64,000 nt of DNA from Periplaneta americana (Eukaryota; Arthropoda; Insecta; Blattodea; Blattidae): NCBI RefSeq assembly GCF_040183065.1, contig NC_091120.1, forward strand, positions 171,589,988 through 171,653,987, read 5' to 3'. Shown piece after piece: positions 29,801 to 60,403 of this stretch (position 1 is the first letter of the stretch; every line of letters starts with the position of its first letter). Under the pieces are notes generated by a model. That model saw only the letters and a list, made by a program, of their open reading frames with translations. It did not search any database and had not been told where the DNA came from. Made by a program: the position numbers and the translations under genes.

Positions 29801-32800
29801 GTTGGTAGGTGGGTGGGTGAGTGTGTGGTGTGGGGAATTGTGTGTATATGGCTGAGTGTGAGTGTGGGTAGGTGAGAGTGGGTGGGTGTGTGTGGGGGTG
29901 GGTTTGGGTAGCTGGGGGTGTGTGTTTTTTCTGTGGGGTGGATGGGTGTTGGGGGTCGTGTATGGAAATGGAGTGTTTGGGGGTGGGGTGGGTAGGTGGG
30001 TGCGTGTGAAGGGGGAATGTTTGGGGTGGAGGTGGGTGTGTGTGGGTAGGTGGGTCTGGGGGGTTGTGTGGGGGCGGGGTGTGGTTGGGGGTGGGTAGAT
30101 GGATGTGAAGTGTGTGGGTAGGTGGGAGTTTCTCTCCAATCTGAAAGTTTCTCATGAAGCTTAAATGAAGTGCAATTTGTTTTATATAATTTACAACTTA
30201 AAACAATTTTTTGATAACATCATCATGGCATGTTTATATATACTTAATGAAAAAGTATTCTCCTACTTTCTACAAAACTCCAATTATTGTAAGATTGTCT
30301 TTTATTTACCCACCGTTTGTGCCTTATTTTTACACCTCTCAACACTTACTAATCAACATTGAAATAGTGACAGCTAATCAGATTGCATGATGCGTATTTC
30401 ACTTTCTTCTTAGGTATGGAAATGCCATCCGTCTGGAGCAGCTCAAGCTGTATGAGTTGCTGGTTAGTCATTCTCGTCACCAGTTACTAGTCCATGAACC
30501 TTTCCTCCGCCCATTACTTAGGCTACTTGCTTCGTGTGCTGGTGAGGTCTTTCCTGTGGAAGTAGAGAAAAGACTTGTTGTGTTGCTCAACCAACTGTGC
30601 GTCTCTCTTATGCAGAACATTGAGCTACTCGACCTCTTCTTCTATGCCTCTCCAGATCAGGGTCCGGCCAAGTAAGTGAAAACAGATCCTAATTATACTT
30701 AAGAGAAACTCCTGCTGCAATTTATTTTAACTGCATTGGAATAGTTATGAATTGAAAGTGGTCTGGAAGAGTATAGTAAATGTGGACATTTCATTTGACA
30801 CATATTTTTATAGAATAATTTTTTTTTTTTTTATTATTATTAAAGGGGTACAGACCCAGAAACAAAATTTGGGCTACCTGAATTTTACATGTTCCAGTTA
30901 TAACTTACTGCGCATGCTCATTAAGCACTGGGTATGTACATAAACGTTTGAGGGTGAAAAATAAATTAATTTTTCATTTTGCTTAAATTAATTTAGTATG
31001 AACCTTTAGCTTTACATTTGTGAAAGAAATTGTAAAATACCTATAAAATTAACCAAATTATGCATTAAAATATCCTGCCATGCAAACACAATACCAGCCA
31101 GCAGTATATTATTTTATCACTCGTTTTCTCAAAATTACATTTTTCAAAATTGTTTGAATTATATTTTTCATAATTTTGTAACAGTGCAAGAAATTTCGCA
31201 TGAACATTTTTCTTAATGAGATCAAAAAACTGTAACTCAATATTTAACTTATCTCATCCGGAAAAAAAAAAAAAAGTCAATAATATAAAAACAAAAAAAA
31301 AAAAAATCAAAATTTTTTTTTTATGATTCTGAGTACCTTGTCCCCTTAATCCTAATGTGTAGGAGATGAAATAATACAAAATAATGTTAAATTCTAACAG
31401 AGTAAAAGGATAAAACTTCATGAATATAAAAACTTAAAGTATGACATGGGTCGTGAAGAAATATTGAAGACCTTGGTGGGCTGCATGTTATGAAAGTTTA
31501 GGAAACTTTGCTCTAGGTAATTTAACTGATACATAATCGGTATGAGCCAAGTCAATTTTGTATCGACATGCACACCAAGCAATTTGAAATAATTTTTTTT
31601 CTGTAGTCTTTAATGTAGTTTCGGTTTTTGTATCATTGAGTAAAAGTCCATTAACACTTGGACCAATTCTTTGCTTCCATGAAGAATAAATTGAGCATTT
31701 CTTTAAAGTTCACAAAGATCGGGTTGTTTATTAAGAAATGTGGTATCGTCTGTGTAAAGAATAGAAGTTGTATTCATATTATTAGCAAAATAATTTCCCA
31801 TTATTATAAACAAAATCTGTCCTAAAACTGATTCTTGGGGAACTGCAAATTTTAAAAAAAGCCTTATCTCTTACCACACTACAACACATTGCAATCTCAT
31901 AGCTAAATAGCATTGATCAGAATTAAGAACATACGAAGGACAACAGTTACTGCATAGAACAATCTGGGATGCATAAACTAACCTTCGACATATGAAATTC
32001 CGTAGGAGGGAGAACAAAATATGCTTTCAACAGAAAAAAAAATATATGGAACAGAGAAAAAAATATATAAAGTCATTACATTGGATATATTGATGGAGTT
32101 TTTTATTTTTCAGTTCATTATATATAATAAATTAAAAGAAAGTTTGTGTACAATCTGTGACATTTTTGTGGTTCTAGATTTGTAATCTTCACTCTTCTCA
32201 TCCCTTTTGTCCACCGAGAGGGCGGAATTGGTCAACAAGCACGTGATGCTTTGTTGCTTTGTATGTCTCTGTCCAAGAAGAATGAGAATGTTGGATCTTA
32301 CATTGCAGAGCATTCTAATGTTTGTCCAGTAAGTATCGTCTTTATTTTTAAACAGTTAACTTTCATTTTCATTTTACCTCTTCCTCGAAAAGGATGTAAC
32401 TTAGCTTTCTTAATCTTTCTTTCAGCCTCTTCTTTTCATATTAAAAAATTAACTCAAATTACAATAAATTGTTAGAGTTGTGTAATGTAATAATTTTAGT
32501 GAATTTTGGCTTGAGTTAGTAACATTATCAGGTTTCCATGTTTTATGTAATTATAATGCCTCAAAGGAACTGGCCACCCTACCCATTATCTCCTGGCATA
32601 GTTGCCTCATAAGTGGTGCCTTGTTGATATCACTTGTGAGGTTCAGAGCTGTTTTCGGACAATTAACTAAACAACAACAGTGGTCTAATGGTCAGAGCTC
32701 CTGGCTACAGTTCATGAGGTCCTGGGTTCAATTCCCAGTTAAAGCACAGGAATTCTTCCTGTGTTCGTCCATGATCTGGAATTCAGGTAAGGTTTAGATT

Positions 32801-35800
32801 CCTGATGCCACAAAACCATATGTGGTCATTCTATGATATCGAAGTAATGAGCTTTCCAGGCAAGTGCCCCAACCTCAGAAATGAGTTACACATAAGCCTT
32901 TCTCAACAGTGGAGAGGAGAGAAGACCAGAAATGTTGAAAGACAACCTGAGGCATTAAAAAATGCACTTCAGCCTTTTTATTTTACATTGTCGTGTTACC
33001 ATATGTGTGTAATTTCAATGTGCCATTTTGGTCATTATCAGGCTTGCATACTTAAAATCATTTTAATTACTGTTATATTTGTTTATTTTATGTAATAATT
33101 TTAGAGTTTTTTTGACTTCAACGAATATGAATTCTCTTAATTGATAAACATTTGTAATATTAATAGTCATCACCATCATCCTTTCCTTTCAGATCTCATG
33201 GTCTGTTACTGTTTCATTCAATAGTTTATTTGGTTGTCCCGGGTTTCTATTCAATTTAGACTGGGAGTGTAGGAGTTGTTTGGGTTCGTAATATTGGCGA
33301 TTAGTCTGTCAGAAATATTGAGCGTATTGTGTAGTTCACGTACTCTGCTAATTCCAGCTGGACGAGATAAGAAGAAATAGTGTATTCAGTTCTGTTTGTA
33401 TTCGTTATCTGATATCATCATTTTATCTTAGTATTGAAGAGCTTGGATGTACGTAAGATAACAAAGGTTATTTTTATGTGCATTGTTTTCTTATGTTTCC
33501 TGACAATTGCAGTTTGTCATGTAACCAGCCTTATGTGGTTTCTTGAAATGTAGACGACTTAAACTATATTAGAATATACAGAATGATTTATATAGAACTA
33601 ACACATTTCTTTCTTTATTTATTTCAAAACAAATGATGCTAGCCACTTTGTTATATCTCAAATGTAGAGTATCTTTGGGAGATTACTAACCTCTTTAGCA
33701 AATGCTGAAAAATCTTTATTTATTTGGCTGGAAATTCACTTAATGGCCAGTTTTTAACGTCAAATTAAGCAGGAGCTTTGATTCCCTGTCACTAGATGCG
33801 CAGATGTTTACGATTATGGATTACGATGTTTGCCTTTTTCACTCACTAGAGTTCCATTTGTTTCCAATTTGTTTACCAGTCCCAGTATTGTGTTTCTTTG
33901 GGAGGGATTACGAACACCAAATTCTCTCTGGTATGCTCTTTGAGTAGCGTAATTGAATTCGTAATCCAGTATTGCTTCACAAGGAAGAGCCGTTGATTTA
34001 ATGTGTACTGCATTTTCAGTGACTAAAATAAAATGTCGAAAACAGCTGCCAATAATAACAAATAAAGAAAACTCCAAAACTAAATTTTATTTTATTTTGC
34101 TAATACTTGTAACAAAATATAGTATACATAAAATATCAATTTATTTTAAGAAACACATCATAATCTTCACATGCTGTTGTAGAGGCATCCGGGAGTCTAC
34201 CTACAACTTATCAATTTAATGTTAATATGTGCAATAAAATATATATATTTTTTTTAATCCAATGCCACCAGGTTGTCTTTTCGACATTTCTGGTCTTCTC
34301 TCCTGGCCGTGGCTTAGTTGTAACCCACTTCTGAGGTTGGGGTGCCTGGAAGGCAGAGTTACATTACCCCGATGATGTGATAGGATGATTATGATGAGGT
34401 CTTAAATCTAAACTTAACCTAAATTCCAGACCATGGACGAACACAGGAATAATCCCCTTTAAGGAAAAATTCCTGTGCTCTAACCGGGAATCGAACCCGG
34501 GACCTCATGAACTATAGCCAGATGCTCTGACCATTAGACCATGAGGCTGGTCGCAATAAAATATTAAAGTCTCTATTCATCATCATTAGTGGAAGAATCA
34601 TTGTTGTCGTCGCCATCTTCCCATAGAACATCATTCTCAGTTCCATCAAGTGAATACGTAATACCGTGAAGTGATACCAACCTTATTTTAAAAAATGCAC
34701 ACAGTTCCGTTTTTCTTTGCTAAATTCCAGAAGAAATATGCATGTAGTATTTGTGTGTATATAAGGTATTTAATTAAATTACAAATGATGACAAATTCAT
34801 TATAAATTTTTGGTGTGTCCTCTTTTTTTTTTTTTCTGCTCAGTCCTCCTTTTTAATGATAGCCTATTCTGGCTTTGTTCATCTGGTCCCCCTAGTCATG
34901 GGGGGGAGGGGGAAGTAATAAACTGGAGGCTTCAAGCAATATGCAAATTTTAATGGAATATTTAATAAATTAATTAATGAATAAATTAGGAAATAAATAA
35001 ATAGAATAAAGAAAGAAAGAAAGAAAGAAATTTACTAATAAATTAATTTTAAACTTTAATGAAATACAAGAGAAATAATCTTAATTATATGACCTGGGAG
35101 ACTAAAGAAAATGTTGACAAATATGGGAAATTCCTGGGAGACTTACGAACCTGAATAACAAGAGAAACAATAAAGAAAGAAAGAAATTTACTAATAAATT
35201 AATTTTAAACTTTAATGAAATATAAGAGAAATAATCTTAAATATATGAGCTGGGGGACCAAAGAAAATGTTTGACAAATATGGGAAATTCCTGGGAAACT
35301 TAACGAACCCGAATAACAAGAGAAACAATAAAGAAAGAAATTTATTATTTTTTTTAATTAATTTACATTTTCTTTTTTGTTCATTCGAATTGATTAGGAT
35401 GCCGATATTTAAAATCCAAGATTTGGATGGCTATCATTTCGATATATGTTTTTTTTTTTTTAATGAAATATAATAGTACATTATGCAACGAGCCTATAAT
35501 GGTAGTAATTAAGACGCGAGTATGTTTGTTTATGAAACGAGTGCAAGCGAGTTTCATAATTTTCATACGAGCATCTTAATTACCATTATAGGCAAGTTTC
35601 ATACGACTTTTTATGCTCGACCATATTTCTAACTTGAAATTATTCAAAAGTATTCATGTTATGGTTATTTAAGTGAGGAGCGAACTGACCTGAATTGTGA
35701 GATGTGCGCAGACGCGAAAGTATTGATTTTTTCCGAGGCCGAATCTCATTGACCTTGATATAACGTAGAGAATAAGATGAACATTAGTCTTGATATAACC

Positions 35801-38800
35801 TGGAAATTGATTTAGAATTGAAAAACGAGATGACAAATTGAATTTATTTGAATATTATTTACAATTAACGCTAATTATTATAGTAACAGAACATAACCTT
35901 CTGCAACAGTATTGGATTTCCAGACTCCGTGACTTTTCGCTAATTGTCTTTTGATTGCATATCCGAGAATAATCGATACTTGCGGTTTTATAATGGTACA
36001 AAGGTGATTTGTCATTGGCTGACCAACTGAATTATAATGAATAGGTGTACTTTAATGAGGTGCATTAAAGGGCTACTACCAGGTGTATAATTACTACATT
36101 TCGGAATGGTCGAGCATAAAAGGAATAATCTTAAATATATGAGCTAGGAGATCAAAGAAAATGTTTGACAAATATGGGAAATTCCTGGGAGACTTACGAA
36201 CCCGAATAACATGAGAGTGCTAAACATTTATTTCTTCTTTCTCTGTGTGTCAGGTGCTTGCAACAGGACTGAGTGGGCTCTACTCTCTGCTGCCACGCAA
36301 ACTGGTCATAGAGACTGAGGACTGGCATCGTCTTACCCCAGATGATGTGAACGACATCAATGAACTGACAATGTTCATGAACTCTCTGGAGTTCTGCAAT
36401 GCTGTTGTGCAGGTTGCACATCCTGTTGTAAAAAAACAAATGCTGGAGTTCCTCTACCAGGGCTTTCTGGTACCAGTCATGGGGCCTGCACTGCTACAGG
36501 TAATGTACATGCATTATTCTACATTGCTCTTTGGATTGCTAGTTATTAGTAAATTGGAGACAATAATAGATTGGTTAGGTATGTCCATAAATTATGTCAG
36601 CAGTGTTACAGGTTACATGTTGCCTCATTTCAGATTGTAGCTACAATTGGGTACACATTACGTAAACATTTTCTGATCAACACAATTTTAAATCACATTA
36701 AAACAATATTTACATATGTTTGATTGTTAATAGCTCTTATTATGGTTATTTGCGACCATTCTGGACTCTTGTAACAGCTATGCACTGTGTAACAGAATAT
36801 TTTTGTACGCATAAACGAGTACTCATCATTTTCATTTGAGAACACACTATGTTATTAAAAAAACACTGCTAATTATTCTGTTGCCATTCCAACAGCTAAC
36901 AGATCGTAATTGAAACATTGTGAACTGCACTGTTGTCAATTTAAAAAAAAAAAAATACTTGTAGTCAGGTGTCTGAGAAAAGCTTGGTTGTACAGTGAAA
37001 TTTTCCAATAGCATACACCGTCGGGGAAAAATTAAATGTCCGTTATTGAGAAGTGTCCGCTATTTAGAAAATCGTTAGTATGTATACAGTACTTTAAATT
37101 TCTCATACATATTCAACACTATATTTTACAGTACAGTGCAGTAGACAGTGAGATTGTGAGATTGTTTACAGTATCCATCCAGAGAGAAATCGTACCAGTA
37201 AATGTTTTGTAAATAAAATAAACATCAGTCACTGTACCACTTCACCTTACACAATGAAATCTAGAATTGCATTCTCAGTGTATGATTTTAAAATAACATC
37301 CTTGTTTTTCAAAATTTCACTAACCTGAGTTTTTCCCACACATTAAACTTTGTGGCCAGCTCACGAACACTTAATTTTTCCTTCTCACTATGCTTTACAA
37401 TATCCACTTTCTCTTTTACTGACAAACGTTTACGTTTTTGTGACATTTTTAATGTGATTATACTTCCGAACACTCAACTTGACAACCTAAGAAAGTACGG
37501 ACTTCTCACGTACTACAATATCACAACTAACAACTGTGCTGCTTACCTTCAATAAAGTACAAGAACGTTCAAATGCACGATAATGATTGTTGCCAAGAAT
37601 TCCGTTATTATTCCGTTTAATTTACAACCGTCTTTTTCTTTTTTTCTTTTGTGCTGTCCGTTATTTGGAAGTTTTAATTGTTGTTGGGAGATACATTTCA
37701 GTGTCCGCATCCATTATTGAGAATGTCCGCTATTTGGAAGAATTTTATCATAAGGGCCAATGTTATTTTGCAGGGGAATTTTAAAATGTCCACTATTGAG
37801 AGGAGTCCGCTATTGGGAAGTGTCCGTTAAGGGAAGTTTCACTGTATTAATAAAATCATATTCTATTGAACAGGATGGAGTGAGTTTATATATTAATTAT
37901 TAACAAATACAGTACATATAGAATTGTTTTGGAAGATAGGTTCTAGAACATCATTCTGCTTGCGTTTCAGCTAGCTATTTAAACAGTAAAAGTAGAAAAA
38001 GACTTGATTTACAATCAAAATAACTCTCTTGAAGGGTGAAAAAGGGGATGACCCAGAAAGAGATGATCAAATATAGTGAAACAGTGGAAATTTGCGGATT
38101 GTAAGTGTGGTATTGGCTAACAGATGCACACTTGCTTGTAAGAGTCGAGATGTGGAATAATTTGTTACGAACCAGATTGGTAATCATGAAGTATATGCAT
38201 GTAACCTGTGAATAGAAAGAAAAAAAAACATAATTTATGGACAATCCTGAAGCTTTTTCTCATTAAGTTGCAAATAAATATGGTTCTGATTTTTCTCAGG
38301 TGATTGTTATGTATATATTATGGGTGTACATTTTAAAACAGTAATGCCTAGAATCATTAAGTATATAATGTTTACTCATTTATGTAGAGCATATTGCACT
38401 AGCTTTCAGTTATTTTGCTACATGCATCTTGAAAGGTTTAGGGAAGTTTTGCAAGTGATATAATTCGTATTATACTTGTTTATAGAAATAAATTATGAAC
38501 TCATATATTTGTAATTGTTGAGGGATATTATACATGTATACAAACCCTTGAAGAGTGGTTTGAGATCACGTCTAAATATTTTGTAACTTGTCTTCCCTTC
38601 TCCTTTTGATGATAGACACTGATAATACAAACACCTTACAGTAATTCTTTTGAAATTTGACATTGTGTTTTATTTGAGGTTATAAATGAAGTAAAATTAC
38701 CTATTGTATACTGTTAAACCAAACAAAGTTAAATTTGACTTTTATTTTAAAAAGTAAGGGTAAAGTCAACAGGCCAAATCAGCTCAGAGGGTGGCGAGAG

Positions 38801-39356: not shown

Positions 39357-42300
39357 TAATAATAATAATAATAGTAATAATATCTTCCCCAAAAACACCA
39401 TAAATCATTCCAGTTTTGCAAAAGAAAATGAAAAGAGAGTTAAAATGAGAAAAAAAAAAGTTAGATGGTTACCCAGTTTACTGACTTTGTCACTTGCTTC
39501 TTTCTACAGAAAATCATCCTTACCTTCACTGTGCACATACACAATATAATTGCAAACACCATTCATTATGTACGCTCATCATTATATGTATTACAAAATG
39601 TATTTGTTTTTCTATAAAATCTAGCAAGAACAGGTAGCAGTTTCACAAACACCTCCCACTTGATTTAAGATGGACCTTTCTGAAACAAGTAATACAAAAA
39701 TTTTAACAGCCTCACTTCTCCGTCAGAAGTGCAGTCGACTGGCAGTTGTTATATATATCTTCCCTTCCTTTTTATTCTTTCACCGCTTCATCTGTTTACA
39801 TTTACAGCTAAAAAAAATTGGGATATGATATAGAAATTTGTTGTTGGAGACGTTTTTCATGTGGAAATCTTTAAATAAAACATTAAATAAATATACACCT
39901 AACACATCTTCAAACCAAGTCAATCACAACTTAACTGGAGTTGCCAGTTAGATGTAAAAGTATCTAAAGGAATGTTCTGTCATTACAGTCCATTCATATG
40001 AAAAAAAATGAGGTATTATAACACATCTTAGAGGTTTTGTGCTCTATCTGGTACTTCTTATGAAAGGGTTTCCATTCCTGTAAAACTGGAAATATTTACG
40101 GAATTTTATAGTGATTTGTTCTGTTAAATTGGGAAATTAAAACAATCTAAAACATTTTTTATCAAATGTCGTCATCTAGGAATGACATGCTGAAACTGTA
40201 TTTTTGCCATAATATGCTTTGCCCTCAGTGCACTATGGGGGGACAAACTACAACCACTCAATCATGATTAATGGAGCAATGGTGAAATGTCAGTAGGGAA
40301 AACGGGAATAACCTGTGAGGACCTACTAAGCATTGTTTTTGTTCATCACAAATTCCACTTGGACCCACTGGGATTCCAACCCAATTTATCAGCGTGTAAA
40401 TCCACTGCTCTAGCTTTTCATCTAACATTGCAGATGTCTAAAATAAATGGAATATAATGTTAAATGATATTTATTTTATTAGCAAGTGTGCACCATTTAT
40501 TTTTTGTGGTTCCAAAATTACTAGAGATTGAATATTCATGTTCACGAGATTTTATATGAACTTGGTTTGTTGGTTCATAATAACTGATGATCCATAGATT
40601 CCATCCCAAGTGAAAAAATAAATTAAGTCATCTATAATATGACATAGCCCCTGCATTGCTTTTCATGCAGTAGATTATTGAACTATGATGGTATCCAATT
40701 TTAAGATTCTTGTATAACTCCTAAGACCTGACGATTAGTCCATTTACTATTTTGCATTTATACCTATATAGTGAAGTTAGTGACGGCAACTTTCAGTCAG
40801 TAAAAATTACTGACAGTATCTCAGATTTCAATAAAATTATCCAAATTTAATTATATAAATAATAATGTGATACCATTGATCTCATATAACACAACTGCAC
40901 TTTTTTTTTTTTCCACTATATTTGAAAAATCCTTTTTGAAAACTGTAGACAACATAGCTACTAGGCAGTGGCGAAATCTGAGGCAGATGCGAAGCTTTGG
41001 CTGCTCTGGTCTTTTTCCTATAGATATGAGACGCGTCCATAAAGTAACTTTCCTACTCGTCCCACAGCTAGCAAACCATATGTTGCACGAAGCGACTGTG
41101 TGTATGTGATAGAGTAATATCCTGGCATAGCGCATGCGCTAGCGGAACTTCCCAAGTGCTCTCAGTAGCTTCGTTTCATTGGTTGAAGATGGACGCTCCT
41201 ATTCCAGCTTCCGCCACGTGTGAAGTGCGATTAGTGATAAAGATTTTGAATGCACGGGGCATAGCGCCGATTGAAATTTATCGCCAGCTATGCCAGGTCT
41301 ATGGGCCTAACGTCATGAGCAAGCAGATGGTGCGTTGCTGCTGTAGACAATTTTCAGCAGGACGCCAAAATGTGCATGATGAGGAGCTCAGTGGGAGGCT
41401 AACCATCATCACAGAAGACCTTGTGGAGCAACGCACCATCTGCTTGCTCATGACGTTAGGCCCATAGACCTGGCACAGCTGACGATAAATTTGAATCGGC
41501 ACTATGCCCTGTTTATTCAAAAACTTCACACATGGCGGGAGCTGGAATAGGTGCATCCATCTTCAACCAATGAAACGAAGCTACTGAGAGCACTCAGAAG
41601 TTCCGCTAGCACATGTGCCATGCCAGGGCATTACTCTATCACGTACACACAGTCGCTTCGCACAACATATGGTTTGCTAGCTGTGGGACGAGTGGGAAAG
41701 TTACTTTATGGACGCACCTCGTATTTGGCTCTTTTCATGCCAGTGAAAATTGTAGGCTGTTTTATTGTGTATTTAAACATTATGCAGACGATCATGTATC
41801 ACAGTACATAATTATTACCATAACAAACATGCATGTGTCAGTTACATTGACAAAATTCCTAAACTATCACTTTTTGATGTTTGACTAGCAAATTGATTTA
41901 TTAGATCGTCATATTGCAATGATCACAACAATTCTGCTTAATATTAAGAATAGCTGGAGCACTAAGTCTGTCCTCATGTTTTTTAACGTAAATAATTAAC
42001 TCGCTGTAAACAAGAAAAGCTATGTTCACCAGAGCAATTATTCCTGAATTCAATTGGAGGTGTTTAGGCCATAATGAAGGGCTACATTTCCCCTCTACAG
42101 ATCATACCACTGATGCTTGAGCTCCATAATCATCTCAACAACCACTCATTCTCTGTGCAAACCTAGCTGTTATAACAGAGGTAAAAGGTCCCTTAAAAAA
42201 TTATTGCTCCTAAAATTTCCTGCTCTGTTCTATAGCCTATTGGTAAATTCCCCTCTGGGTGCAACCATGAAACAATTCTTTGATTATAGCTTCAAAATAT

Positions 42301-45300
42301 AGATTCTTTTTCGACAGTCTTAATTTTAGCTTGTTTTATGTCAATTATTTTCGTTAGACTAACTGATTCGAAGTAGTTGAGAATTAAGTAATTTAGGTGG
42401 TGGTTAATGGGGATAGCATATAGAACCACGTAGTGTAGTCAAGATTACACATTTGTACAAAGAGTTGGAAAGACAGGGAATGGAATTTGCTGATTTGTAA
42501 CATACTTTTGTCCACCAACCACTTACACAAGGCGGTTAAAATACAAATGGGACTGATTTTTTTACAAACATAAAACCCCATCCAGCACGTTACTGACCTT
42601 GAAAGGGAGACGTTGCTTCCCTCCCCTCCCTCTTAGGTAGTTATGAGCATGTTCAGTCTTGTCTGAACTCTGGTAGAGGGATGAGTGAACAGAAAGTGCC
42701 AGTTAGCATGGAACAACGCATTATTATCAAGTTTCTTACTGGGAAAGGAGTCCAGCATCGGAAATTCTCCAGAGACTCGAAAAACAGTTTGGAGAAGCAT
42801 GTCTCTCCAGAACCTGAGTGTTTGAATGGTGTAAAACCTTCAGAGAGGGAAGAGAGAGATTGGAGAACATGCTGCATACTCGTCGACTGCAAACATTGAT
42901 CACCCCAACCAATATTGACCATGCTAATGTGCTTACATGGGAGAACAGATGCATTAGTGTAAAAGAACTTACTTCAGTATTAAGTATAAGTATTGGTAGT
43001 GTACAAACTATCGTGCAAAAACATTTGCACTACAGGAAAGTGAATGCCCATTGGGTCCCACGCACACTTACCAATGAAAACAAAATGGTACGCATGCAGA
43101 TGGCCAGTCAACTCCTGGGATGGTTTGAAGCAGGAAAACTATTTCTGAAATCCATAGTCATCACTGATGAAACTTGGGTCCACTATTTCATTCCTGAGTC
43201 TCAACAATCAACGAAAGAGTGGCACCATAGCGGTTCTCCAAAACTTAAGAAACCAAGGAGGACAATCTCAGCTGGAAAAGTAATATAATAAAAGTTTCAA
43301 ATTCAGTCTATAAGATTTATCTTTTTTTTTTAATAAAAAAAAAACTAAAAAAAAAAACAAACTAGATTTATCTGAAAACAAAATGAATTGGAAAAGTAAT
43401 GCCAACATTCATTTGGCATTGGAAGAGAGTTATCCATCTTGATTTCCTTCAGGAACGCAGGACCATCAATGCAGAATATTATTCCAACATTTTTTCGGGA
43501 GAAGTGAAGAATATGATTCGATCAAAGAGGAAAGCAGGAGGAAATATGATTTCCTTCCTTTAAGACAATGTGAGGCCTCACACTGCCAGAAAAACCATGA
43601 AAACCATCAGGAAAGTAAAGTGCCCCACCCATCTTACAGTTCAGATATCGCCCCAAGTGATTTTTGTTTGCGAGACTTAAAACTGGCATGGAGGGAGTGC
43701 TGTTTGAAGATAACAATGCAGTGATGTCACATGTTTGTGAATAGGTACGCACCCAAGCAAAAGACATTCGGGAAAAGGGAATAAAACAGTTGCCAAAACG
43801 CTGGAAAAAGTGTATAGAAGCCCATGGGGACTACTTTGAAGGATAATATGTAAAACAGGTCAGTTTGTAGTACAGTATTTTCTAAAACAAATCAGTCCCG
43901 TTTATATTTGAGCCACCTGGTAATTTATGTATAGTTAGGTTATGTCTTTGTACATATTAAACTTGTTTTGTATATAAGAAACATTTTATTTTAAGGTTTA
44001 CAAATTCTAAAATAATAATTGCACGTGAAATTTTGCCCTGTTTGGTGATGGTGTGGGAAGTTAATGGGTTAAACAGTGTTTCTATATCCATCGTATAAAA
44101 AGTTGTAATCTTCATCTTACGATGTTTGGTGACGTATATACGTCCATTGATGTGACATACACCCATAAGCAGTGCTGACTAGATCAGACGCTATGGACAG
44201 TACTCTATAACAGAGTTGCCAGTATGAAAGGATAATTCCAAGCCTTTGGTGTGAGACGAACTCGATAGCTCAGTGGTAGAGCGCCTGACCGGAGAACAGG
44301 AAGTCGCAGGTTCGATTCCCGCTCGAGATTGCGTAATTTTCTTTCATACCATGGCATGATTGTGACTATAATAGTATTTAAATTCATTAAAAAGTTATGT
44401 TCAGTTTCCTTATGATAAACAAAATCTTGGCTCCCTTGTTTTTCTAGTTAAAAAAAGAAAATATTTCAGAAATATGTTACTTTAAATGATATTGCCCACA
44501 AAAGACAAATATAAAATACATTTTTAATATCCTTTATATTATAATGATACAGAACAATCTGGACTTGTGGATAGAGCTCTTAAGGTTATTTTGCTTCTAA
44601 GTATTATTATTGAGTGTAAAGCCTAAAAAAAAAAAGACTTTATAAACCAGTAATTGTAGTAATTTTCAGACAGTTTTGGCTTCCCTTTCATTTTAGATAC
44701 AGTTAGTTCAAACTAATTTATATATGAAAAGTAAGTTCTCTATAAGATAATAAATATTTTAAATTCAAAGTAATGTAGTATATATAATATATCTTCTGTA
44801 ATTTTTTTGTAAAGCAATCGGGTGGCAGGAAGTTAATGGCAGTAGGAATGACAGTCCTATGTGGCCACCACCTTTACACCCAAGGTAATGCCTCTACTCA
44901 TTTCTGTTAGAGGATGAATAAATCCCATGGTCATAGTGTGGCCGGAAGGATTAGATCAATGGAAAAAGTCCCTACCCCTTTGAGAATCAGATCTGTGATC
45001 TTTTGGCTTTGCAGCATTATGCCTTAATTGTGATGCTATCATGTTCCTCCTAAAGTAAAAAGTGAAAAATTAAAATATGGTAAATTCATTGCACATTATT
45101 AAATCTAGTTAAGTGGAGAATTTAGCAAATTTCAGTAACATACAATACGATTATTGGGCATGTTTATAATGAAGTAAAACTTATAAAAAAATTATTGCCT
45201 TAAATTTGATGAGGATTATTTCAGGCCATAATTAGGTCATATCATTATCTTTCTCTGGTGGTAAGAATTGGGAAAGAAACTTCACTTGTACTTTCAGAGA

Positions 45301-58605: not shown

Positions 58606-60244
58606 TCAGTCTTCTTAATGTATCCAGCTGTTTGCTGACAACATAAAGTCCACTGTGGTCTATTCAGTTTTTGTTTTTCACGAGAAATGAGGGGTATTTT
58701 GATCTGTGTTCATAATAGATGCCTGTTGCTAGTAGCCAGAGTTGGAGTTATATTGTCCCTCCTCTGGCAAACTAGCGAAAGTGACAAATTAGCGACCCTG
58801 CACTTAAGGTCTATATTGCACCATTAAATAGTGCAATATAGACCTTAAGTGCAGGGTCGCTTATTTTTCACTTTCGCTAGTTTGCTAGAGGAGGAACGAT
58901 ATATATACTGTAATTGTTGCTGTAAAATTAATACATTTTTATTTTTCTGTGGCTTTTTGCAGTTGTGTTTAGTGACTCTGGCTCTGTTTGAAACCTTGGT
59001 GGACCTGAACTGCGAAGACGTGATGCTGGAGTTGGTTTTCCGTCATCTGGTGCCATGCACTCATGTGATGCTGTCACAGAGGCGAAGAGTTCGTGACATT
59101 GAGCCATACTGCCGCAGTTCCGACAAATTCCTGTCGTTATCTCCAGCATGTTGTAATTTGTCTGTTCCTGCTCTTCGGCCGTCAGCTGCTCCAGACCACA
59201 CGCCCCCGCATTCGTTCATTTCGCCCAGTCCTTCCCTCCCAGCCATGCTGACCACTTCTGCCCAGCATAGACGTAGTGCTTCTTTCTCCGATCATCAGCC
59301 CATCTCCCTACCGTCCACTAGCACACTCTATGGTCTGAGAGCGGGAGAGAGTTTGTACGGCAACTACCATGCCTATCTCTGTGATGCAAGGAGAAAGATC
59401 AAAGAATGTGCCACTGCCTGTGCAAATTGGACTTATCCGTATGATGGAGAGAATCCGCCCCACGATGCATTGACTGCAAGTAGAGAAAACAAGAACTGTG
59501 ATATTAACCAAAGTCAGTGTCGAGACGAAAGTGTAAATATGAGGGAAGTGAATGTAAAGGAAGGAACTGAAGGGACTGAAAGCAATGCGGTACCTGTTAC
59601 TCTTGATAACAAAGAAAGTTCAAAGAGTATGTCCATGACAACAAAGGGGGAGGGAGAGGACGCTGGTAGTCCTTTAACTGTGGGGGGTGAAGAGAAGGCA
59701 GCCTCTGAGCTTGCTGGGAAAAAGAGTGAGGTTATGTCTGCAATAAGGGAGAGTGAATTTGTTGTGGAATCTTGCGATAACTCTGGCGATATAGACAGTA
59801 ATACCAGCAACAACGACATCGCTAATGTTGCATCGAATTACCACAGTTTACCGTCCATAGGCGAAAGTAGTGGTTATGAAAGTTTTGCTCTGAAAGGCTC
59901 GTCAGAATCAACACCTGAAAATGAACCTTGTGATGACCGGCAAACAGATTCAGATCTTGGTGTTTCGATGGACACGAGAATACAGACCAGTGTACCTAAA
60001 AATGTGGAAAATAACTCCCTGCCAGAATCTAGGGATAATTCGAGGGAAAGCAGCACAGAAGGAAGCATCAGCAACCCAAGTGCGTCTGAGAAAAGTGTAC
60101 CTCGGCATCGACTAGGTAGCGCAAGTTCTATTTATTCACGTACAGAAGATTTTTCAAATTCTAAGTCTGACTTGTGGCCATTTAATCGAAAGTTCTCCAG
60201 GGAAGGATCTTATCTGGACATCTTCAATACGACCCCAGATATAG
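18005..60244 (+). CDS. FHIP1: FHIP1, FHF complex subunit HOOK-interacting protein 1 (FAM160A/CG3558 family), 3'-incomplete
   Basis: Seven coding exons join in consistent phases (0, 2, 2, 0, 0, 0, 1) to 2458 nt, about 819 residues: 18005-18154, 28494-28696, 30414-30671, 32178-32328, 36254-36499, 56230-56397, 58963-60244; the frame leaves the window at a GTAAGT donor. Conserved landmarks include MSWLR at the start, YELLVSHSRHQLLVHEPFLR, LLIPFVHREGGIGQQARDAL, VLATGLSGLYSLLPRK, VEELVAATAYFDLFLRSI and LNCEDVMLELVFRHLVPC. By family knowledge FHIP proteins bind FTS and Hook proteins in the cytoplasmic FHF complex, linking dynein to endosomes. Residues 1-450 form the conserved helical part; about 455-819 are Ser/Glu/Asn-rich and look disordered. 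The conserved C-terminal region is expected downstream. Introns of 10.3 and 19.7 kb are swollen by transposons. The family call is firm; subtype 1 is based on similarity to CG3558/FHIP1 recalled from memory. Confidence 0.95.
18621..18678. repeat. 29-bp tandem duplication
   Basis: The 29-bp unit (starts CAAATTTACAACC, includes TACCGGTAGTATG) occurs twice in a row at 18621-18649 and 18650-18678, without change. Confidence 0.95.
18679..19795. other. AT-rich part of FHIP1 intron 1
   Basis: No gene or element recognised. Confidence 0.5.
19812..20257 (+). CDS. Unrecognised ORF inside FHIP1 intron 1 (exon or retrocopy fragment)
   Basis: An open frame of about 148 codons begins at an acceptor-like TTTCGGTCAG, without ATG, and ends at a TAG at 20255-20257. 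The composition is that of a genuine folded protein: FLPVPHLPTVNMMLHRGGDK, IVGKHGRCLVLGEDWQVFD, then basic helix LQEILKKRLSVKMTDV and a strand-rich end KKINITIEFKFV. Immediately after the stop another frame reads ISSEEAGTFYGDVCQDFQKK to a TAA near 20375, suggesting a +1 frameshift near the stop and hence a decaying copy. It lies on the same strand as FHIP1 but fits nothing in that family. I cannot name it; a processed pseudogene or a piece of an unknown element are the main options. Confidence 0.4.
20846..20872. repeat. (TA)n microsatellite
   Basis: About 13 uninterrupted TA units. Confidence 0.9.
20873..22549. other. AT-rich part of FHIP1 intron 1
   Basis: No feature supported; short ORFs here (for example 21133-21375 minus, 22303-22536 minus) show no motifs. 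Confidence 0.5.
22550..23645 (+). mobile_element. LINE fragment with reverse transcriptase and C-terminal region
   Basis: Shifting plus-strand frames give FFDIQ/KAFDLVNKTMLIDKLE (22555-22615), LQGDVLSPLLFNIA (22735-22775), IYAYADDMVILS with the YADD catalytic motif (22820-22855), LLLNKKKTVTMTFRKGG (22920-22965), ITPIITYGIDIIW (23170-23208), and a C-terminal Cys/His cluster (HCVCGDICDGYHVAKC) near 23567-23615. The element is 5'-truncated and has at least four frame breaks. Confidence 0.8.
23965..24770 (-). mobile_element. LINE 3' part, decayed
   Basis: On the minus strand from 24740 downward: LNIFADDVV (degenerate YADD region), EYGMEISVDKTKIMGF, KPSLVQKHTRIKDHKTMARP, SEAWTIYNVMNNELLSM and finally ERTLGRPLKCWNETVTDHQA with a stop near 24005. 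This is the order of the second half of RTE/CR1-like ORF2 proteins. An 80-bp partial duplication (AATGAAACCCATTA motif at about 24540 and 24590) is present. Confidence 0.7.
24804..25033. mobile_element. Candidate MITE with imperfect TIRs and inner hairpin
   Basis: The left end GGCCAGCAGCATAGTGCAT resembles the reverse complement of the right end, GGCCGGTAGCATACTGTAT. Inside, CATTCTTATGATGCTGCAGC (24863) pairs imperfectly with GCTGCAGCCTCTTAAGAATG (24930). There is no coding content. Confidence 0.45.
25312..26611. mobile_element. TIR element with GTAAAGTCGATC repeats, TA-flanked (1.3 kb)
   Basis: The left end CTGTAGAAGAGGGTAAAGTC and reverse complement of the right end CCGTAGAAGTGGGTAAAGTC match, with TA on both sides (25310-25311, 26612-26613). 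The motif GTAAAGTCGAT recurs at 25324, 25519 and 25575 on the left, and its complement ATCGACTTTAC at 26589 on the right, as subterminal repeats. No transposase was recognised. Confidence 0.75.
26620..27410. other. Part of FHIP1 intron 1 without recognised features
   Basis: The ORF at 26662-26889 has no motif I recognise. Confidence 0.45.
27411..27578. repeat. 168-bp inverted repeat (hairpin), arms about 79 bp
   Basis: 27411-27489 pairs with 27500-27578 with only a few mismatches (shared core GATTAGCTTCCAAGCTTTC), around a 10-bp centre. The phrase CTGAAGAAGATGGCAGAG in the right arm resembles the ends of Penelope-like elements, so it may be two inverted termini. Confidence 0.9.
27807..28064 (+). 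mobile_element. tRNA-derived SINE (family D) with 11-bp target duplication
   Basis: Head: GTGGAGTAACGGTTAGAGTG (A-box region) and CCAGGTTCGATTTCCGG (B box). Body: TTTTTTCCGGGGTTTTCCCC, ACTCATTTCACCGGCATTAT and CTAAATAACC, then an A-rich tail. TATAATTAGAT flanks it at 27796-27806 and 28065-28075, perfectly. Confidence 0.92.
28494..28696 (+). CDS. FHIP1: FHIP1 coding exon 2
   Basis: 203 nt after a TTTTCAG acceptor. Encodes DDVLGVVNHLDQMVTFLLLE and LLDRLFAWSIHTG. Donor GTATTT at 28697, leaving phase 2. Confidence 0.95.
29155..30128. repeat. GT-rich satellite-like block (about 975 bp) in FHIP1 intron 2
   Basis: The plus strand is almost purely G and T, built from variants of GTGGGTG, GTGTATATGTGG and GTGTTTTTTCTTTGTGGGG. 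Larger units recur about 420 bp apart: the GGTTGTGTATATGTGG block at 29222 and 29640, and the GGGGATGTTTGGG block at 29319 and 29742 with a variant near 30010. Many closely spaced runs of three to five G could form quadruplexes on the transcribed RNA, because the G-rich strand is the FHIP1 sense strand. Long His/Pro/Thr and Gly/Val/Cys ORFs here are artefacts of the repeat. Confidence 0.95.
30414..30671 (+). CDS. FHIP1: FHIP1 coding exon 3
   Basis: 258 nt after CTTCTTAG. Completes the Arg codon, then YGNAIRLEQLKLYELL and further conserved helices to FFYASPDQGPA. Donor GTAAGT, phase 2. Confidence 0.96.
30900..31479. other. AT-rich part of FHIP1 intron 3
   Basis: No gene seen. Poly-A and poly-T runs near 31262-31322 are the only distinct pattern. 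Confidence 0.5.
31480..31850 (-). mobile_element. LINE reverse transcriptase fragment (jockey-type wording)
   Basis: In FHIP1 intron 3, minus-strand frames from 31850 downward read AVPQESVLGQILF, then LYTDDTTFLNKQPDL (degenerate YADD), GLLLNDTKTETTL and KLLGVHVDTKLTW. These are the consecutive motifs of a jockey/BovB-like RT palm and thumb. Several frameshifts. Confidence 0.65.
32178..32328 (+). CDS. FHIP1: FHIP1 coding exon 4
   Basis: 151 nt after GTTCTAG. Encodes FVIFTLLIPFVHREGGIGQQ and ARDALLLCMSLSKKNENVG, among the most conserved blocks of the family. Donor GTAAGT, phase 0. Confidence 0.96.
32675..32962 (+). mobile_element. tRNA-derived SINE (family E), copy 1
   Basis: Head GTGGTCTAATGGTCAGAGC and GGGTTCAATTCCCAG, followed by GCACAGGAATTCTTCCTGTG; the 3' part AGAAGACCAGAAATGTTGAA is shared with the minus-strand copy at 34243-34552. 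The internal part is shortened or diverged relative to that copy. Confidence 0.8.
33165..33245 (-). mobile_element. LINE 3'-end fragment
   Basis: The minus strand reads GRPNKLLNETVTDHEI followed by a GAT/GGT-rich tail (CATCACCATCATCC on the plus strand), closely resembling the 3' end of the LINE at 23965-24770. Confidence 0.5.
33246..33800. other. Part of FHIP1 intron 4 without recognised features
   Basis: AT-rich sequence; nothing supported. Confidence 0.45.
33820..34010 (-). pseudogene. mariner-like transposase N-terminal helix-turn-helix fragment
   Basis: The minus-strand ORF has AILDYEFNYATQRAYQREFG, RNPSQRNTILGLVNKLETNG and SEKGKHRNP, with the arrangement of the DUF4817-type helix-turn-helix at the start of mariner/Tc1-related insect transposases (xQRxFRxxF, PSxxTIxxLxxKFxETGS, GRxRxP). 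It is detached from any catalytic part. The C-terminal half of the same kind of protein lies at 54058-54365. Confidence 0.55.
34243..34552 (-). mobile_element. tRNA-derived SINE (family E), copy 2, with 12-bp target duplication
   Basis: On the minus strand the head reads CATGGTCTAATGGTCAGAGC and GGGTTCGATTCCCGG, then GCACAGGAATTTTTCC. GCAATAAAATAT flanks it at 34231-34242 and 34553-34564. This copy is longer and better preserved than copy 1. Confidence 0.9.
35015..35335. repeat. Tandem duplication, period about 156 bp
   Basis: Two copies of a ~156-bp unit (landmarks TTTACTAATAAATTAA, TGACAAATATGGGAAATTCC, ATAACAAGAGAAACAA) lie in direct order, starting at about 35031 and 35187. GAAA runs separate them. 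A third partial copy resumes at 36123-36216 after an insertion. Confidence 0.9.
35478..36120. mobile_element. MITE with subterminal hairpins, splitting a third repeat copy
   Basis: The left part contains GCCTATAATGGTAGTAATTA pairing with TAATTACCATTATAGGC near 35580, and ACTTTTTATGCTCGACCAT near 35607 pairs with ATGGTCGAGCATAAAAGG at the right end. The flanks (AATGAAATATAA on the left, AATAATCTTAAATATATGAG on the right) are contiguous in the tandem unit at 35187, which shows where the element inserted. There is no coding content. Confidence 0.7.
36123..36216. repeat. Third, interrupted copy of the 156-bp repeat
   Basis: AATAATCTTAAATATATGAG through ACGAACCCGAATAACA repeats the unit at 35232-35322. 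It ends 38 bp before FHIP1 exon 5. Confidence 0.85.
36254..36499 (+). CDS. FHIP1: FHIP1 coding exon 5
   Basis: 246 nt after GTGTCAG. Encodes VLATGLSGLYSLLPRKLVIE through FLVPVMGPALLQ. Donor GTAATG, phase 0. A tandem repeat copy ends only about 38 bp upstream of the acceptor AG. Confidence 0.96.
36993..37844 (-). mobile_element. pogo/Tigger-like element with transposase N-terminus (852 bp)
   Basis: Ends CAGTGAAA and TTTCACTG with TA on both sides (36991-36992, 37845-37846). On the minus strand from 37446: MSQKRKRLSVKEKVDIVKHS, ELATKFNVWEK and, after a small frame slip, TQVSEILKNKDVI, the CENP-B/pogo helix-turn-helix region. The catalytic DDE part is missing, so this is an internally deleted copy. 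The motif TGTCCGYTATT is repeated near both ends. Confidence 0.85.
37847..38765. other. AT-rich part of FHIP1 intron 5
   Basis: No feature recognised. Confidence 0.5.
38770..39055 (-). mobile_element. tRNA-derived SINE-like repeat (family F), copy 1
   Basis: The minus strand has GCAGGTTCAATTCCCA (B box) following AGTGTCTCATTTAAGGTATA (weak A-box region), then GATCTAATCCTTCCAGCC and further body. The same order of blocks appears at 44815-45052. Confidence 0.6.
39307..39381. repeat. (AAT)n microsatellite
   Basis: About 24 AAT units with two interruptions. Confidence 0.95.
39390..40195. other. AT-rich part of FHIP1 intron 5
   Basis: No feature recognised. Confidence 0.5.
40200..40440 (-). mobile_element. 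Possible decayed tRNA-derived SINE (family G)
   Basis: The minus strand has AGCTAGAGCAGTGGATTTAC (A-box-like) and GGGTTGGAATCCCAGTGG (B-box-like), followed by about 170 bp of body (GTAGGTCCTCACAGGTTATT). Only one copy is seen here, so the call is tentative. Confidence 0.4.
41027..41721. mobile_element. Palindromic (foldback) mariner derivative, 695 bp
   Basis: TA-flanked (41025-41026, 41722-41723). The left half, from GAGACGCGTCCATAAAGTAA onward, encodes on the plus strand the start of a mariner transposase (MDAPIPASATCEVRLVIKIL, GIAPIEIYRQLCQVYGPNVM, VHDEELSGRLTIITEDLV). The right half, from about 41427 to 41721, is the reverse complement of roughly the first 310 bp, so the same N-terminal protein reads on both strands (ORFs 41156-41467 plus and 41299-41556 minus). 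The non-palindromic centre is about 85-90 bp. No catalytic domain remains. Confidence 0.9.
42681..43845 (+). pseudogene. mariner transposase pseudogene
   Basis: Pieces in order: VPVSMEQRIIIKFLTGKG (N-terminal HTH), EWCKTFREGRERLENMLHTR, ISVKELTSVLSISIGSVQTI (second HTH), WVPRTLTNENKMVRM (WVPHxL linker), IVITDETWVHYFIPESQQST with the first catalytic Asp, then after an A/T-rich interruption (43280-43380) ERRTINAEYYSNIFSGEV, a degenerate DNVRPHTA with the second catalytic Asp, and a broken third region near 43640-43670. Stops and frameshifts occur throughout, so no protein is made. The family is mariner (DD34D type) by motif order. Confidence 0.9.
43280..43382. repeat. A/T-rich insertion inside the mariner transposase
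   Basis: About 100 bp of T and A runs (T10, A9, A12) lies between ISAGKVI and the next conserved region. The short flank (TTAT, AGATTTATCT repeated at about 43313 and 43363) suggests a local duplication around the insertion. Confidence 0.55.
44258..44332 (+). tRNA. tRNA-like sequence, degenerate (SINE head or tRNA pseudogene)
   Basis: TAGCTCAGTGGTAGAGC (A box) and GCAGGTTCGATTCCCGC (B box) fold into a rough cloverleaf. The acceptor stem AACTCGA/TCGAGAT has one mismatch, the T stem one, and the anticodon stem CCTGA/ACAGG one. The loop would place GGA as anticodon but lacks the invariant U33, so function is unlikely. GTATGAAAG at 44222-44230 and CTTTCATAC at 44341-44349 form an inverted repeat around it. 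No SINE body is evident. Confidence 0.4.
44815..45052 (-). mobile_element. tRNA-derived SINE-like repeat (family F), copy 2
   Basis: Shares with 38770-39055 the blocks GGCAGTAGGAATG/GGTAGTAGGGATG, CCCAAGGTAATGCC/CCCAAGGAAATGCC, GGAAGGATTAGATCA and GCAGCATTATGCCTTAA (plus-strand spellings). The B box is degenerate here. Confidence 0.6.
45053..48050. other. AT-rich part of FHIP1 intron 5
   Basis: I see no gene. A GGTT tract near 46637 and short ORFs without motifs (45793-45987, 47006-47203) are the only distinct patterns. Confidence 0.5.
48057..48557. mobile_element. Candidate MITE (500 bp) with imperfect TIRs
   Basis: The left end TAGGTTTGTTCAAGCACGG and the reverse complement of the right end TAGGTTTGTTCCAGCAAGC match for most of their length, and both ends then carry TTCGGAATC-type motifs; CGGAAT recurs inside. 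No transposase. PIF/Harbinger affinity is possible but not shown. Confidence 0.55.
48990..49067. repeat. (ATT)n microsatellite
   Basis: About 25 uninterrupted ATT units. Confidence 0.97.
49736..49944. mobile_element. MITE/hairpin element (about 209 bp)
   Basis: GGTGGTCCACAATAA at the left resembles the reverse complement of the right end (GGCTGGCTTACAATAA). The inner arms GAGAACGGAAGTATTGTTAA and TGTATTTAAATGTGAGCATT pair with AACATTATTTCCGTTCTC and AATGCTCATATTTAAATACA, giving a nearly full-length hairpin. Confidence 0.8.
49945..51112. other. AT-rich part of FHIP1 intron 5
   Basis: Contains a T27 run (50191-50217). CAGTAAAATCCTGATACAGA near 51021 looks like one end of a pogo-like element whose partner end I could not find. 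Confidence 0.45.
51113..51520 (-). mobile_element. LINE 3' fragment (same family as 4414-6509)
   Basis: The minus strand reads FENKMLRKIFGVNMDEVTGE, WRKLHNAELHALYSSPDIIR, RRLRWAG, GKRPLGRPIHRWEDNIKMDL and RWRAYVRTAMNLQVL with stop near 51138, then a TAAG repeat tail. One frame break near 51310. Strong similarity to the copy at 6100-6509. Confidence 0.9.
51625..51710. repeat. (GT)n / (GTGTGC)n microsatellite
   Basis: A GT run changes into GTGTGC units and ends GTGCGTGCGCGC. Confidence 0.97.
51720..53890. other. AT-rich part of FHIP1 intron 5
   Basis: No gene or element recognised. A short CT run lies at 53045-53056. Confidence 0.5.
53898..54638 (-). mobile_element. mariner-like element with very long TIRs, internally deleted
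   Basis: About 140 bp at each end are inverted copies (shared AACTTTAGGGAAATATTTCT, CTTTATTTCCGTGTTAGA, CTCATTTTCTACAACT). On the minus strand, 54365-54058 encodes the C-terminal part of a transposase: FHDRWIGRSLPIPWPPRSPD, LNPLDFYLWGHLKALVYET, HLRDAMRHQFDACIRANG. PRSPDLNPLDFYLWG is the third catalytic region of mariner/Tc1-type enzymes (S-P-D). The N-terminal and first catalytic parts are missing. Confidence 0.85.
54640..56184. other. AT-rich end of FHIP1 intron 5
   Basis: No feature recognised before exon 6. Confidence 0.5.
56230..56397 (+). CDS. FHIP1: FHIP1 coding exon 6
   Basis: 168 nt after TATTTCAG. Encodes STVEELVAATAYFDLFLRSI to IQRINTKSR. Donor GTAATT, phase 0. A second acceptor (CTTTTAG, exon from 56185) is in frame and would add 15 residues, including FFAMDYKGINDVFQ; the shorter form gives better continuity with the family (GPALLQ joined to STVEEL). 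Confidence 0.93.
56640..57780 (-). mobile_element. LINE 3' part with RNase H domain (325-codon ORF)
   Basis: The minus-strand ORF 57629-56652 carries an RNase H domain with its four acidic residues in place: D73 (YTDRSW, where Gly is usual after Asp), E108 (DGEIVAI), D134 (LSDSKAAI) and D187 (GNENADALAK). A Cys/His cluster follows (CPLCNSNQ then SEHLKIC), and the protein ends LLSNAWH. Upstream, another frame (57892-57614) carries more of ORF2, so a frameshift lies near 57620, and the RT domain is absent. The 3' tail is a GTT/CAA repeat at 56637-56649. The same 3' end occurs in the deleted copy at 5071. It is in FHIP1 intron 6, antisense. The near-intact frame suggests a young insertion. Confidence 0.9.
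57785..57904. repeat. (ATC)n microsatellite with ACC interruption
   Basis: About 120 bp of ATC/CAT units with an ACC-rich centre (57845-57860). On the minus strand this is a GAT tail immediately after a LINE end, which gives the artefactual poly-Met ORF. Confidence 0.97.
57905..58020 (-). mobile_element. LINE 3'-end fragment with GAT-repeat tail
   Basis: The minus strand reads LTVLNYRPTGKRSLGRPVKR and WWENF before the GAT repeat, the typical C-terminus of a CR1/RTE-like ORF2. A 5'-truncated, short insertion. Confidence 0.65.
58559..58602. repeat. (TA)n microsatellite
   Basis: About 22 TA units. Confidence 0.95.
58603..58740. repeat. Unclassified interspersed repeat, copy 1
   Basis: Shares with 61065-61205 the order of blocks TCTTCTTAATGTATCCAGC, a region like GGGGTATTTTGAT / GGGATACTTTGAT, and GTTCATAATAGATGCCTG / GTTCATTATAGATACTTG. 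Family unknown. Confidence 0.55.
58749..58903. repeat. 155-bp near-perfect palindrome 59 bp before FHIP1 exon 7
   Basis: The left arm (TATATTGTCCCTCC, GGCAAACTAGCGAAAGTGA, GCGACCCTGCACTTAAGG) and the right arm are reverse complements with about 8 differences over roughly 73 bp around a short centre (CATTAAATAG). It resembles a foldback MITE with TA-rich flanks. Its right end is 59 bp upstream of the first base of exon 7. Confidence 0.93.
58963..60244 (+). CDS. FHIP1: FHIP1 coding exon 7 (large, mostly disordered)
   Basis: 1282 nt after TTTTTGCAG. The first ~60 residues (LCLVTLALFETLVDLNCEDV to SQRRRVRDIEPYC) finish the conserved helical region. About 365 residues then follow that are rich in Ser, Glu, Asn and Thr with no predicted fold by eye. 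Donor GTAAGT at 60245, phase 1, so the gene continues beyond the window. Confidence 0.95.
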
Positions 60245-60403
60245 GTAAGTAATTGTATGTTTAGTAATAGATTTGTGAGATTTTCATATCAAACTTATAT
60301 TTTCCTGCTCAGGAAGAATGTTTCTGCAAAGTAATATATGGGATTAGTAAATAAATTACAGAGGCAAGATATGATTTTTTTAAATTTAATACTTTTTATT
60401 GAC

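Follow-up and report, generated by a model that had tools for sequence, protein, structure and literature searches.

The window analysed here is a stretch of 64,000 nucleotides from the genome of the cockroach Periplaneta americana (contig NC_091120.1, positions 171,589,988 to 171,653,987). The sequence at 41027..41721 raises the question of how the 5' end of a mariner came to stand twice, in opposite orientations, within one element, and whether this arrangement is a single accident or belongs to a mobile family. Taken as a whole, the evidence makes it very probable that a palindromic fold-back family arose from one mariner 5' end, was mobilised in trans, and then decayed.

Structure of the palindromic element

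The initial annotation had placed a mariner-derived palindrome at 41027..41721, and both element ends were found at exactly these coordinates. The two opposite arms and small unique centre that it described were recovered by self-comparison: the inverted arms (41024-41339 and 41427-41724) are identical in 273 of 298 columns, with 25 mismatches, and the centre is 87 nt long. The inverted-repeat alignment gives an arm identity of 91.6%, with gaps of 1 nt and 17 nt, and the arms make up about 88% of the element. The 25 differences between them comprise 22 transitions and 3 transversions, with a CpG context in 9 (K2P 0.091).

Read from left to right, the element begins beside a TA at 41025..41026, the left target-site duplication. 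The left arm (41027..41339, + strand) holds the 5' terminal inverted repeat, a leader, and the start of the mariner frame, as defined by the inverted-repeat alignment. The unique centre, or loop (41340..41426, + strand), carries the left-arm frame onward according to the alignment and the consensus, and the loop itself stops at the start of the inverted arm. The fold-back junction word lies at 41420..41443 (+ strand), which is G000:C4:171631407 in the family count. The right arm (41427..41721, - strand) aligns as the left arm inverted, without 17 nt, and the right TA follows at 41722..41723; TA sites on both flanks had also been proposed initially. No direct repeat families were found in 40800-41950, and no tandem repeats were listed there. 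The strand of the window copy folds at -543.5 kcal/mol, against -212.1 +/- 6.0 in 20 shuffles. The stability of this hairpin is far beyond chance.

Two open frames of the + strand match successive parts of the Pfam family PF10257, and the element is therefore inside a gene span. The upstream frame (36224..36637) is RAI16-like and matches profile positions 167-271 (E 2.2e-28); the downstream frame (58849..60252) matches positions 329-358 with an E value of 7.6e-4, which is below the family cut-off. The element presumably sits in an intron of this RAI16-like gene.

Several other features were observed in the window. A decayed second mariner-like element occupies 42527-43921, with TIR-like arms at 42527-42572 and 43876-43921 (76%); the segment 42818-43285 within it matches the Mos1 transposase (E 0.002) and no Pfam family. 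A 739-bp stretch at 53899-54637 has 121-nt inverted arms (91%) around a fragment like the tail of a DDE/IS630-type transposase, a weak resemblance located at 54061-54357 on the minus strand (E 0.015). This stretch is perhaps another long-TIR derivative. Long inverted repeats were also seen at 61692-62339 (arms about 93 nt, 85%) and 32681-34541 (arms about 300 nt, 73%). The region 29095-30219 is GT-rich and minisatellite-like, with a GC skew of 0.52 over 28001-30000, and the long frames that run through it are probably spurious. A tRNA-like sequence at 44259-44330 (+ strand, Rfam 51 bits) might be a gene or a tRNA-derived repeat.

Family size and mobility

The Periplaneta americana assembly (3,231,669,367 bases in 91 contigs) was searched with a 24-nt word across the fold-back junction, allowing up to 2 mismatches and using the reversed word as control. 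This search recovered the junction word at 869 places, split 443 and 426 between the two strands, and the reversed control at 0. A search with the element itself gave 1518 first-look candidates, 40 of which were scored: the window copy and 39 others at 85-91% identity. These 40, chosen by similarity to the window copy, form the first sample. The second sample consists of the first 80 of 100 junction places listed, all with the exact junction word; by coordinates, the two samples share no place.

Read by eye, the 39 fetched copies agree at their ends and differ in their flanks. The exceptions in the first sample are damage at the left end in L032 and L047, damage at the right end in L014, and CA in place of the left TA in L030. 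In the second sample, 35 of the 80 copies align to both ends; 32 of these are TA/TA, and one side is altered in the other 3. The proposal that the element is a mobile, TA-flanked fold-back derivative of one mariner end is thus borne out by the 869 junction places and the different flanks, and the suggested search for further copies excludes the case of no other copy anywhere. The number of junctions rejects a one-off rearrangement or an assembly artefact, and an artefact is unlikely. The PAMFEO1_priV1 assembly of P. americana was built from PacBio HiFi reads, according to the available text of its report (PMC12774602). In the same text, the DNA elements of this species are described as mainly Tc1-Mariner and hAT, with a higher relative abundance at the 5% Kimura substitution level, which is close to the divergences of the palindrome family given below.

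The element shows several features of a mariner-derived MITE: it is flanked by a TA duplication, derives from a mariner, and has no intact transposase, since the consensus has a mariner frame of only 92 aa. The TA target is typical of mariner MITEs in general. There are also many homogeneous copies that point to one progenitor (869 places with one junction), yet 41 of 80 junction-bearing copies are damaged. The window element belongs to a family of palindromic, non-autonomous mariner derivatives, that is, MITE-like fold-back elements. Among 27 places matching a parent-directed pattern, 0 were a full-length parent mariner. We infer that transposase supplied in trans is the only reasonable route of mobilisation. 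Relatives were also searched for elsewhere. In viral contigs, a protein query gave 3 pattern matches, none confirmed, and a 21-nt end word gave 0; in a collection of genome contigs, the protein query gave 121 stretches, none confirmed.

The founder and its subfamilies

The consensus of the first sample (40 copies) is 717 nt long including both TAs, and its two arms match at all 315 positions. The second-sample consensus (80 copies), read on the alignment to the first so that insertions are invisible, again has arms identical at 315/315; its six differences from the first form three mirrored pairs. The complete identity of the arms in both consensuses implies that the founder was a perfect palindrome. 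Mean divergence from the consensus is 4.9% in the 40 copies (5.3% in the window copy) and 4.05% in the 80. The arms of the window copy differ by 8.4%, about as expected for two arms decaying separately. CpG positions in the first sample change at 12.2%, compared with 3.6% elsewhere. These values indicate that the arms started out identical and then decayed mostly separately.

A polymorphism at position 255 divides the 40 copies. T stands on both arms in 18 copies, and 12 were taken as G on both arms, a group that includes L039 with C on the left arm. The 10 others comprise 9 copies whose two arms disagree (T against G) and L034, in which one arm has a gap. In the consensus of the G group, T172 and G206 are mirrored as well, and the arms of this consensus show no mismatch except a 1-nt difference near 193 and a 14-nt deletion confined to the left arm. 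As judged from these sites, the palindrome family is composed of two subfamilies.

Formation of the fold-back

The junction was interpreted through two of the 27 places that matched the parent-directed pattern, L140 (G000:C1:209251388) and L151 (G000:C7:32625203), in which the sequence continues past the main junction as GTGGAGCTTGTGCGGGAACGC. In L140 this continuation encodes DLVELVRERIMENRRFTITELSSQFPQMSRSMH, in frame beyond the junction, a stretch which we take to be the second helix-turn-helix (HTH2) of the mariner. Both copies invert at consensus position 230, so that the right arm covers positions 1-230, and both have TA at both ends. These features mark L140 and L151 as a second type of fold-back, formed from the same 5' end of the mariner. 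An origin from the main type is excluded, since both copies contain sequence from past its junction, and the existence of this second type implies at least two fold-back events. The main type itself could have folded from a full-length parent or from an element of this second type.

With L140 and L151 used as a proxy for the parent, which defines the main junction and on which the following match rests, GTGGAGC is joined to AACGCACC, with a 3-nt match (AGC) to the arm. This match fits a nascent strand priming on itself. In the proposed sequence of events, DNA of the 5' end of one mariner was being copied, most simply in interrupted gap repair after excision. The nascent strand would have reached ...CTTGTGGAGC and folded back at the short AGC match inside the frame of the DNA-binding domain; at this snap-back point, a full-length parent would read on as GTGGAGCTTGTGCGG. 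By copying its own 5' end, the folded strand would have produced a perfect palindrome, in which the 5' end stands twice in identical form around a loop of 87 nt. With two good terminal repeats, the element might then have been moved by a transposase acting in trans to hundreds of TA sites. Later decay would have included point mutation, fastest at CpG, occasional arm-to-arm copying, and the loss of one arm beside the loop. The most likely occasion is interrupted gap repair, because, in the available text, reports on aphids (PMC5490172) and on Rhodnius (PMC4678618) propose it for shortened mariners. We infer gap repair as the occasion, mobilisation in trans, and arm-to-arm copying as the cause of the mirrored changes described below.

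Alternatively, the palindrome might come from a deletion between two neighbouring mariner copies in opposite orientation, with no single-strand snap-back synthesis. For Rpmar49 and Rpmar17, the Rhodnius authors favour a deletion that abortive gap repair caused between two close copies, as far as the available text goes (PMC4678618). However, two copies would normally differ, yet the founder arms are identical at 315/315 in both consensuses, although very young copies could be identical; the 3-nt junction match, while not conclusive, also fits self-priming. An origin by such a deletion is therefore considered unlikely, and snap-back of a single strand is the preferred reading.

Mirrored changes between the two arms

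A mirrored change was defined as the same change on both arms of one copy, and arms paired between copies served as the control. Over all sites of the first sample there are 106 mirrored changes, against 41.8 +/- 5.6 in the shuffled pairs (maximum 56 in 200). Outside CpG and four frequent sites, 23 remain versus 6.4 +/- 2.6 (maximum 15.1 in 500), each found in a single copy; 22 of the 23 were confirmed on the raw sequence of both arms, and one is unreadable on the left. CpG sites contribute 48, against 18.6 +/- 4.3. The second sample, based on the alignment, gives 19 mirrored changes versus 6.2 +/- 2.4 outside CpG and frequent sites (maximum 16 in 2000), and 25 versus 10.0 +/- 3.3 at CpG sites. 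The 19 correspond to 18 site-states, one of which is present in two copies. The mirrored excess over shuffled arms is about threefold in both samples.

Strong homogenisation of the arms was rejected. Outside CpG, the difference between arms is 0.0597 within a copy and 0.0666 between copies (0.0577 and 0.0611 when the four frequent sites are removed), and the partner arm is the nearest arm for only 4 of the 80 arms in the first sample. The mirrored changes suggest occasional arm-to-arm copying as their simplest reading, with a small overall effect.

The mirrored variants might instead reflect several independent foundings by variant parents, with no copying between arms. A second fold-back type does exist, and L140 and L151 carry G255 on the left arm and G317 in the loop, states which are also found in the main family. 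Moreover, the four frequent sites taken by themselves do not stand out in the second sample (53 mirrored versus 43.4 +/- 5.1, maximum 61). The variants at 172, 206, and 255 could also trace back to variant parents that founded the family repeatedly, or to exchange between copies, and unsampled founders are a possible source of mirrored changes. Against repeated founding as the whole explanation stands the excess of private mirrored changes outside CpG and the frequent sites (23 versus 6.4 and 19 versus 6.2), since every one of them would call for a separate founder that shares this junction. That explanation is accordingly held to be doubtful, and occasional arm-to-arm copying is retained.

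Loss of one arm

Damage to the palindrome was analysed in the 80 exact-junction copies (L048-L127). Both arms are present in 39; the left arm is damaged in 23, the right arm in 13, and 5 are damaged otherwise. Breakpoints were tested in 35 of the 36 one-sided cases, L085 being dropped as a duplicate of L084. In 26 of these 35, no more than 55 nt of the damaged arm is left beside the loop, where uniform breakpoints predict 6.1; the exact-junction criterion forbids deletions through the junction, so this comparison covers the spread within the arm only. The deletion is internal in L061, L084, L085, and L094 (three independent cases), because a TACGAGG end stub is kept. A CTCGTA in L127 may be such a stub, and a CTCGTA near L079 may be chance.

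Ten damaged copies were checked further out, and no other arm was found within 1.5 kb in 9 of them. In L108, the rest of the arm follows after about 770 nt, on the far side of an apparent insertion, seen through L137; this copy was thus wrongly placed among the 35 arm-loss cases, as it represents an insertion and not a loss. Among the 10 of the 35 that were checked in this way, insertion into an arm explains the apparent loss in 1 (L108). Slow ageing as the cause of arm loss is not supported: damaged copies are no more diverged (means of 0.0278 and 0.0247 for one-armed copies versus 0.0302 for two-armed copies; one-sided p 0.92), a comparison that has little power if the family spread in a single burst. 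Breakpoints so near the tip are consistent with a nascent strand folding back shortly after it has passed the loop, or with breakage at the hairpin tip.

Coding relics and the silencing reading

The relic frame of the window copy (41189..41467, + strand) has 92 aa and a stop; it comprises the mariner HTH and a linker, with the last ~11 aa coming from the inverted arm. The left-arm frame matches the Pfam family HTH_48, 'HTH domain in Mos1 transposase', above the cut-off (E 4e-6), and the minus-strand frame matches it at E 2.1e-4, below the curated cut-off. Among relatives of solved structure at E values up to 1, only the SETMAR chain 7s03_A was found, a weak match (E 0.014). The matched stretch of the element holds a single HTH; mariner carries a second one, which is absent from the palindromic element.

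The initial annotation described a DNA-binding domain encoded on both strands. This holds for the family consensus, which has a 92-aa frame per strand with the first 50 residues common to both, but not for the window copy, whose right arm is missing 17 nt and has a mariner frame that runs for 15 aa before a stop. The forward frame is intact in 4 of 40 copies and the reverse frame in 0 of 40. Non-CpG rates at codon positions 1, 2, and 3 are 0.051, 0.035, and 0.042 in the left arm; 0.035, 0.039, and 0.039 in the loop; and 0.041, 0.042, and 0.043 in the right arm. The arm parts outside the frame change at 0.031 and 0.030, a little below the framed parts (0.035-0.051), and this slower change argues against full neutrality. 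Selection for the encoded DNA-binding domain was rejected, as the frames are mostly lost and third codon positions are not consistently faster. Two-strand coding is a relic and not a conserved feature. A protein function of the palindromic family is unlikely, because so few copies keep the forward frame and none keeps the reverse.

A role as a hairpin-RNA silencer of the parent mariner, like Mu killer of maize, is very improbable: the long hairpin lies inside a + strand gene span and is thus probably transcribed, and the element does carry part of a transposase gene, together with the terminal repeat, duplicated in inverse orientation, but its presence in hundreds of copies points to a mobile family in the first place, the window copy shows no sign of preserved RNA pairing, and the family shows no codon-position constraint. 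In the + strand RNA, the arm differences of the window copy give 8 G-U and 14 A-C pairs; G-U is not favoured over A-C, and nothing points to selection for an RNA duplex in this copy.

Significance and comparison with known systems

Long palindromes in animals are rare and unstable, and hence hard to study. The main value of the mobile family is as a record of the formation, spread, and decay of one palindrome. Hundreds of copies of the same palindrome with separate histories could give direct rates of arm-to-arm copying and of tip-proximal breakage, and the family documents the conversion of a mariner into a palindromic non-autonomous element. Tentatively, and with the chances not quite even, the family may be regarded as a natural mutation-accumulation experiment on one 700-bp palindrome at hundreds of sites, which would reveal hairpin-templated correction and loss of one arm near the tip, with snap-back both decaying the palindrome and having created it at least twice. 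No earlier report of the cockroach palindrome family was recognised in open-access titles and abstracts, the scope of this search.

The comparisons below follow the available text of each report. The closest known elements are Rpmar49 and Rpmar17 of Rhodnius prolixus, non-autonomous mariners in which one end is replaced by a copy of the other, giving exceptionally long terminal repeats (PMC4678618). Rpmar49 was amplified from a unique progenitor, and the breakpoints of Rpmar17 vary within one region. In Rhodnius, a copy of the 3' part, 221 bp long in Rpmar49, stands in place of the 5' part; in the cockroach, the 5' end is doubled and carries the frame of the DNA-binding domain. The Rhodnius lineages have 13 and 227 copies, compared with 869 junction places in the cockroach, and self-priming is proposed as the origin of the cockroach family, unlike that of Rpmar49 and Rpmar17 (PMC4678618).

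Mariner MITEs in general, in the account given for aphids, share with the cockroach family the lack of a functional transposase and the mobilisation in trans that is proposed for it (PMC5490172). Most of their breakpoints have microhomology, attributed probably to abortive gap repair; these MITEs are described as internal deletions of complete copies (PMC5490172), whereas the cockroach elements are fold-backs. Galileo and other Foldback-like elements also have long terminal repeats and chimeric copies, and in the Galileo report long inverted repeats are suggested to attract recombination and conversion (PMC3573991). However, Galileo belongs to the P superfamily and has long, internally repetitive repeats and no mariner ends (PMC3573991), and the internal tandem repeats in long terminal repeats that mark Foldback and Galileo elements were not found in the window copy. 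For the silencing reading, the closest precedent is Mu killer of maize, which is proposed to yield a hairpin RNA and resembles the cockroach element in that part of a transposase gene is duplicated in inverse orientation along with terminal repeats (PMC3440606). Mu killer is a single locus with demonstrated silencing (PMC3440606), whereas the cockroach palindrome is a mobile family known from its sequence.
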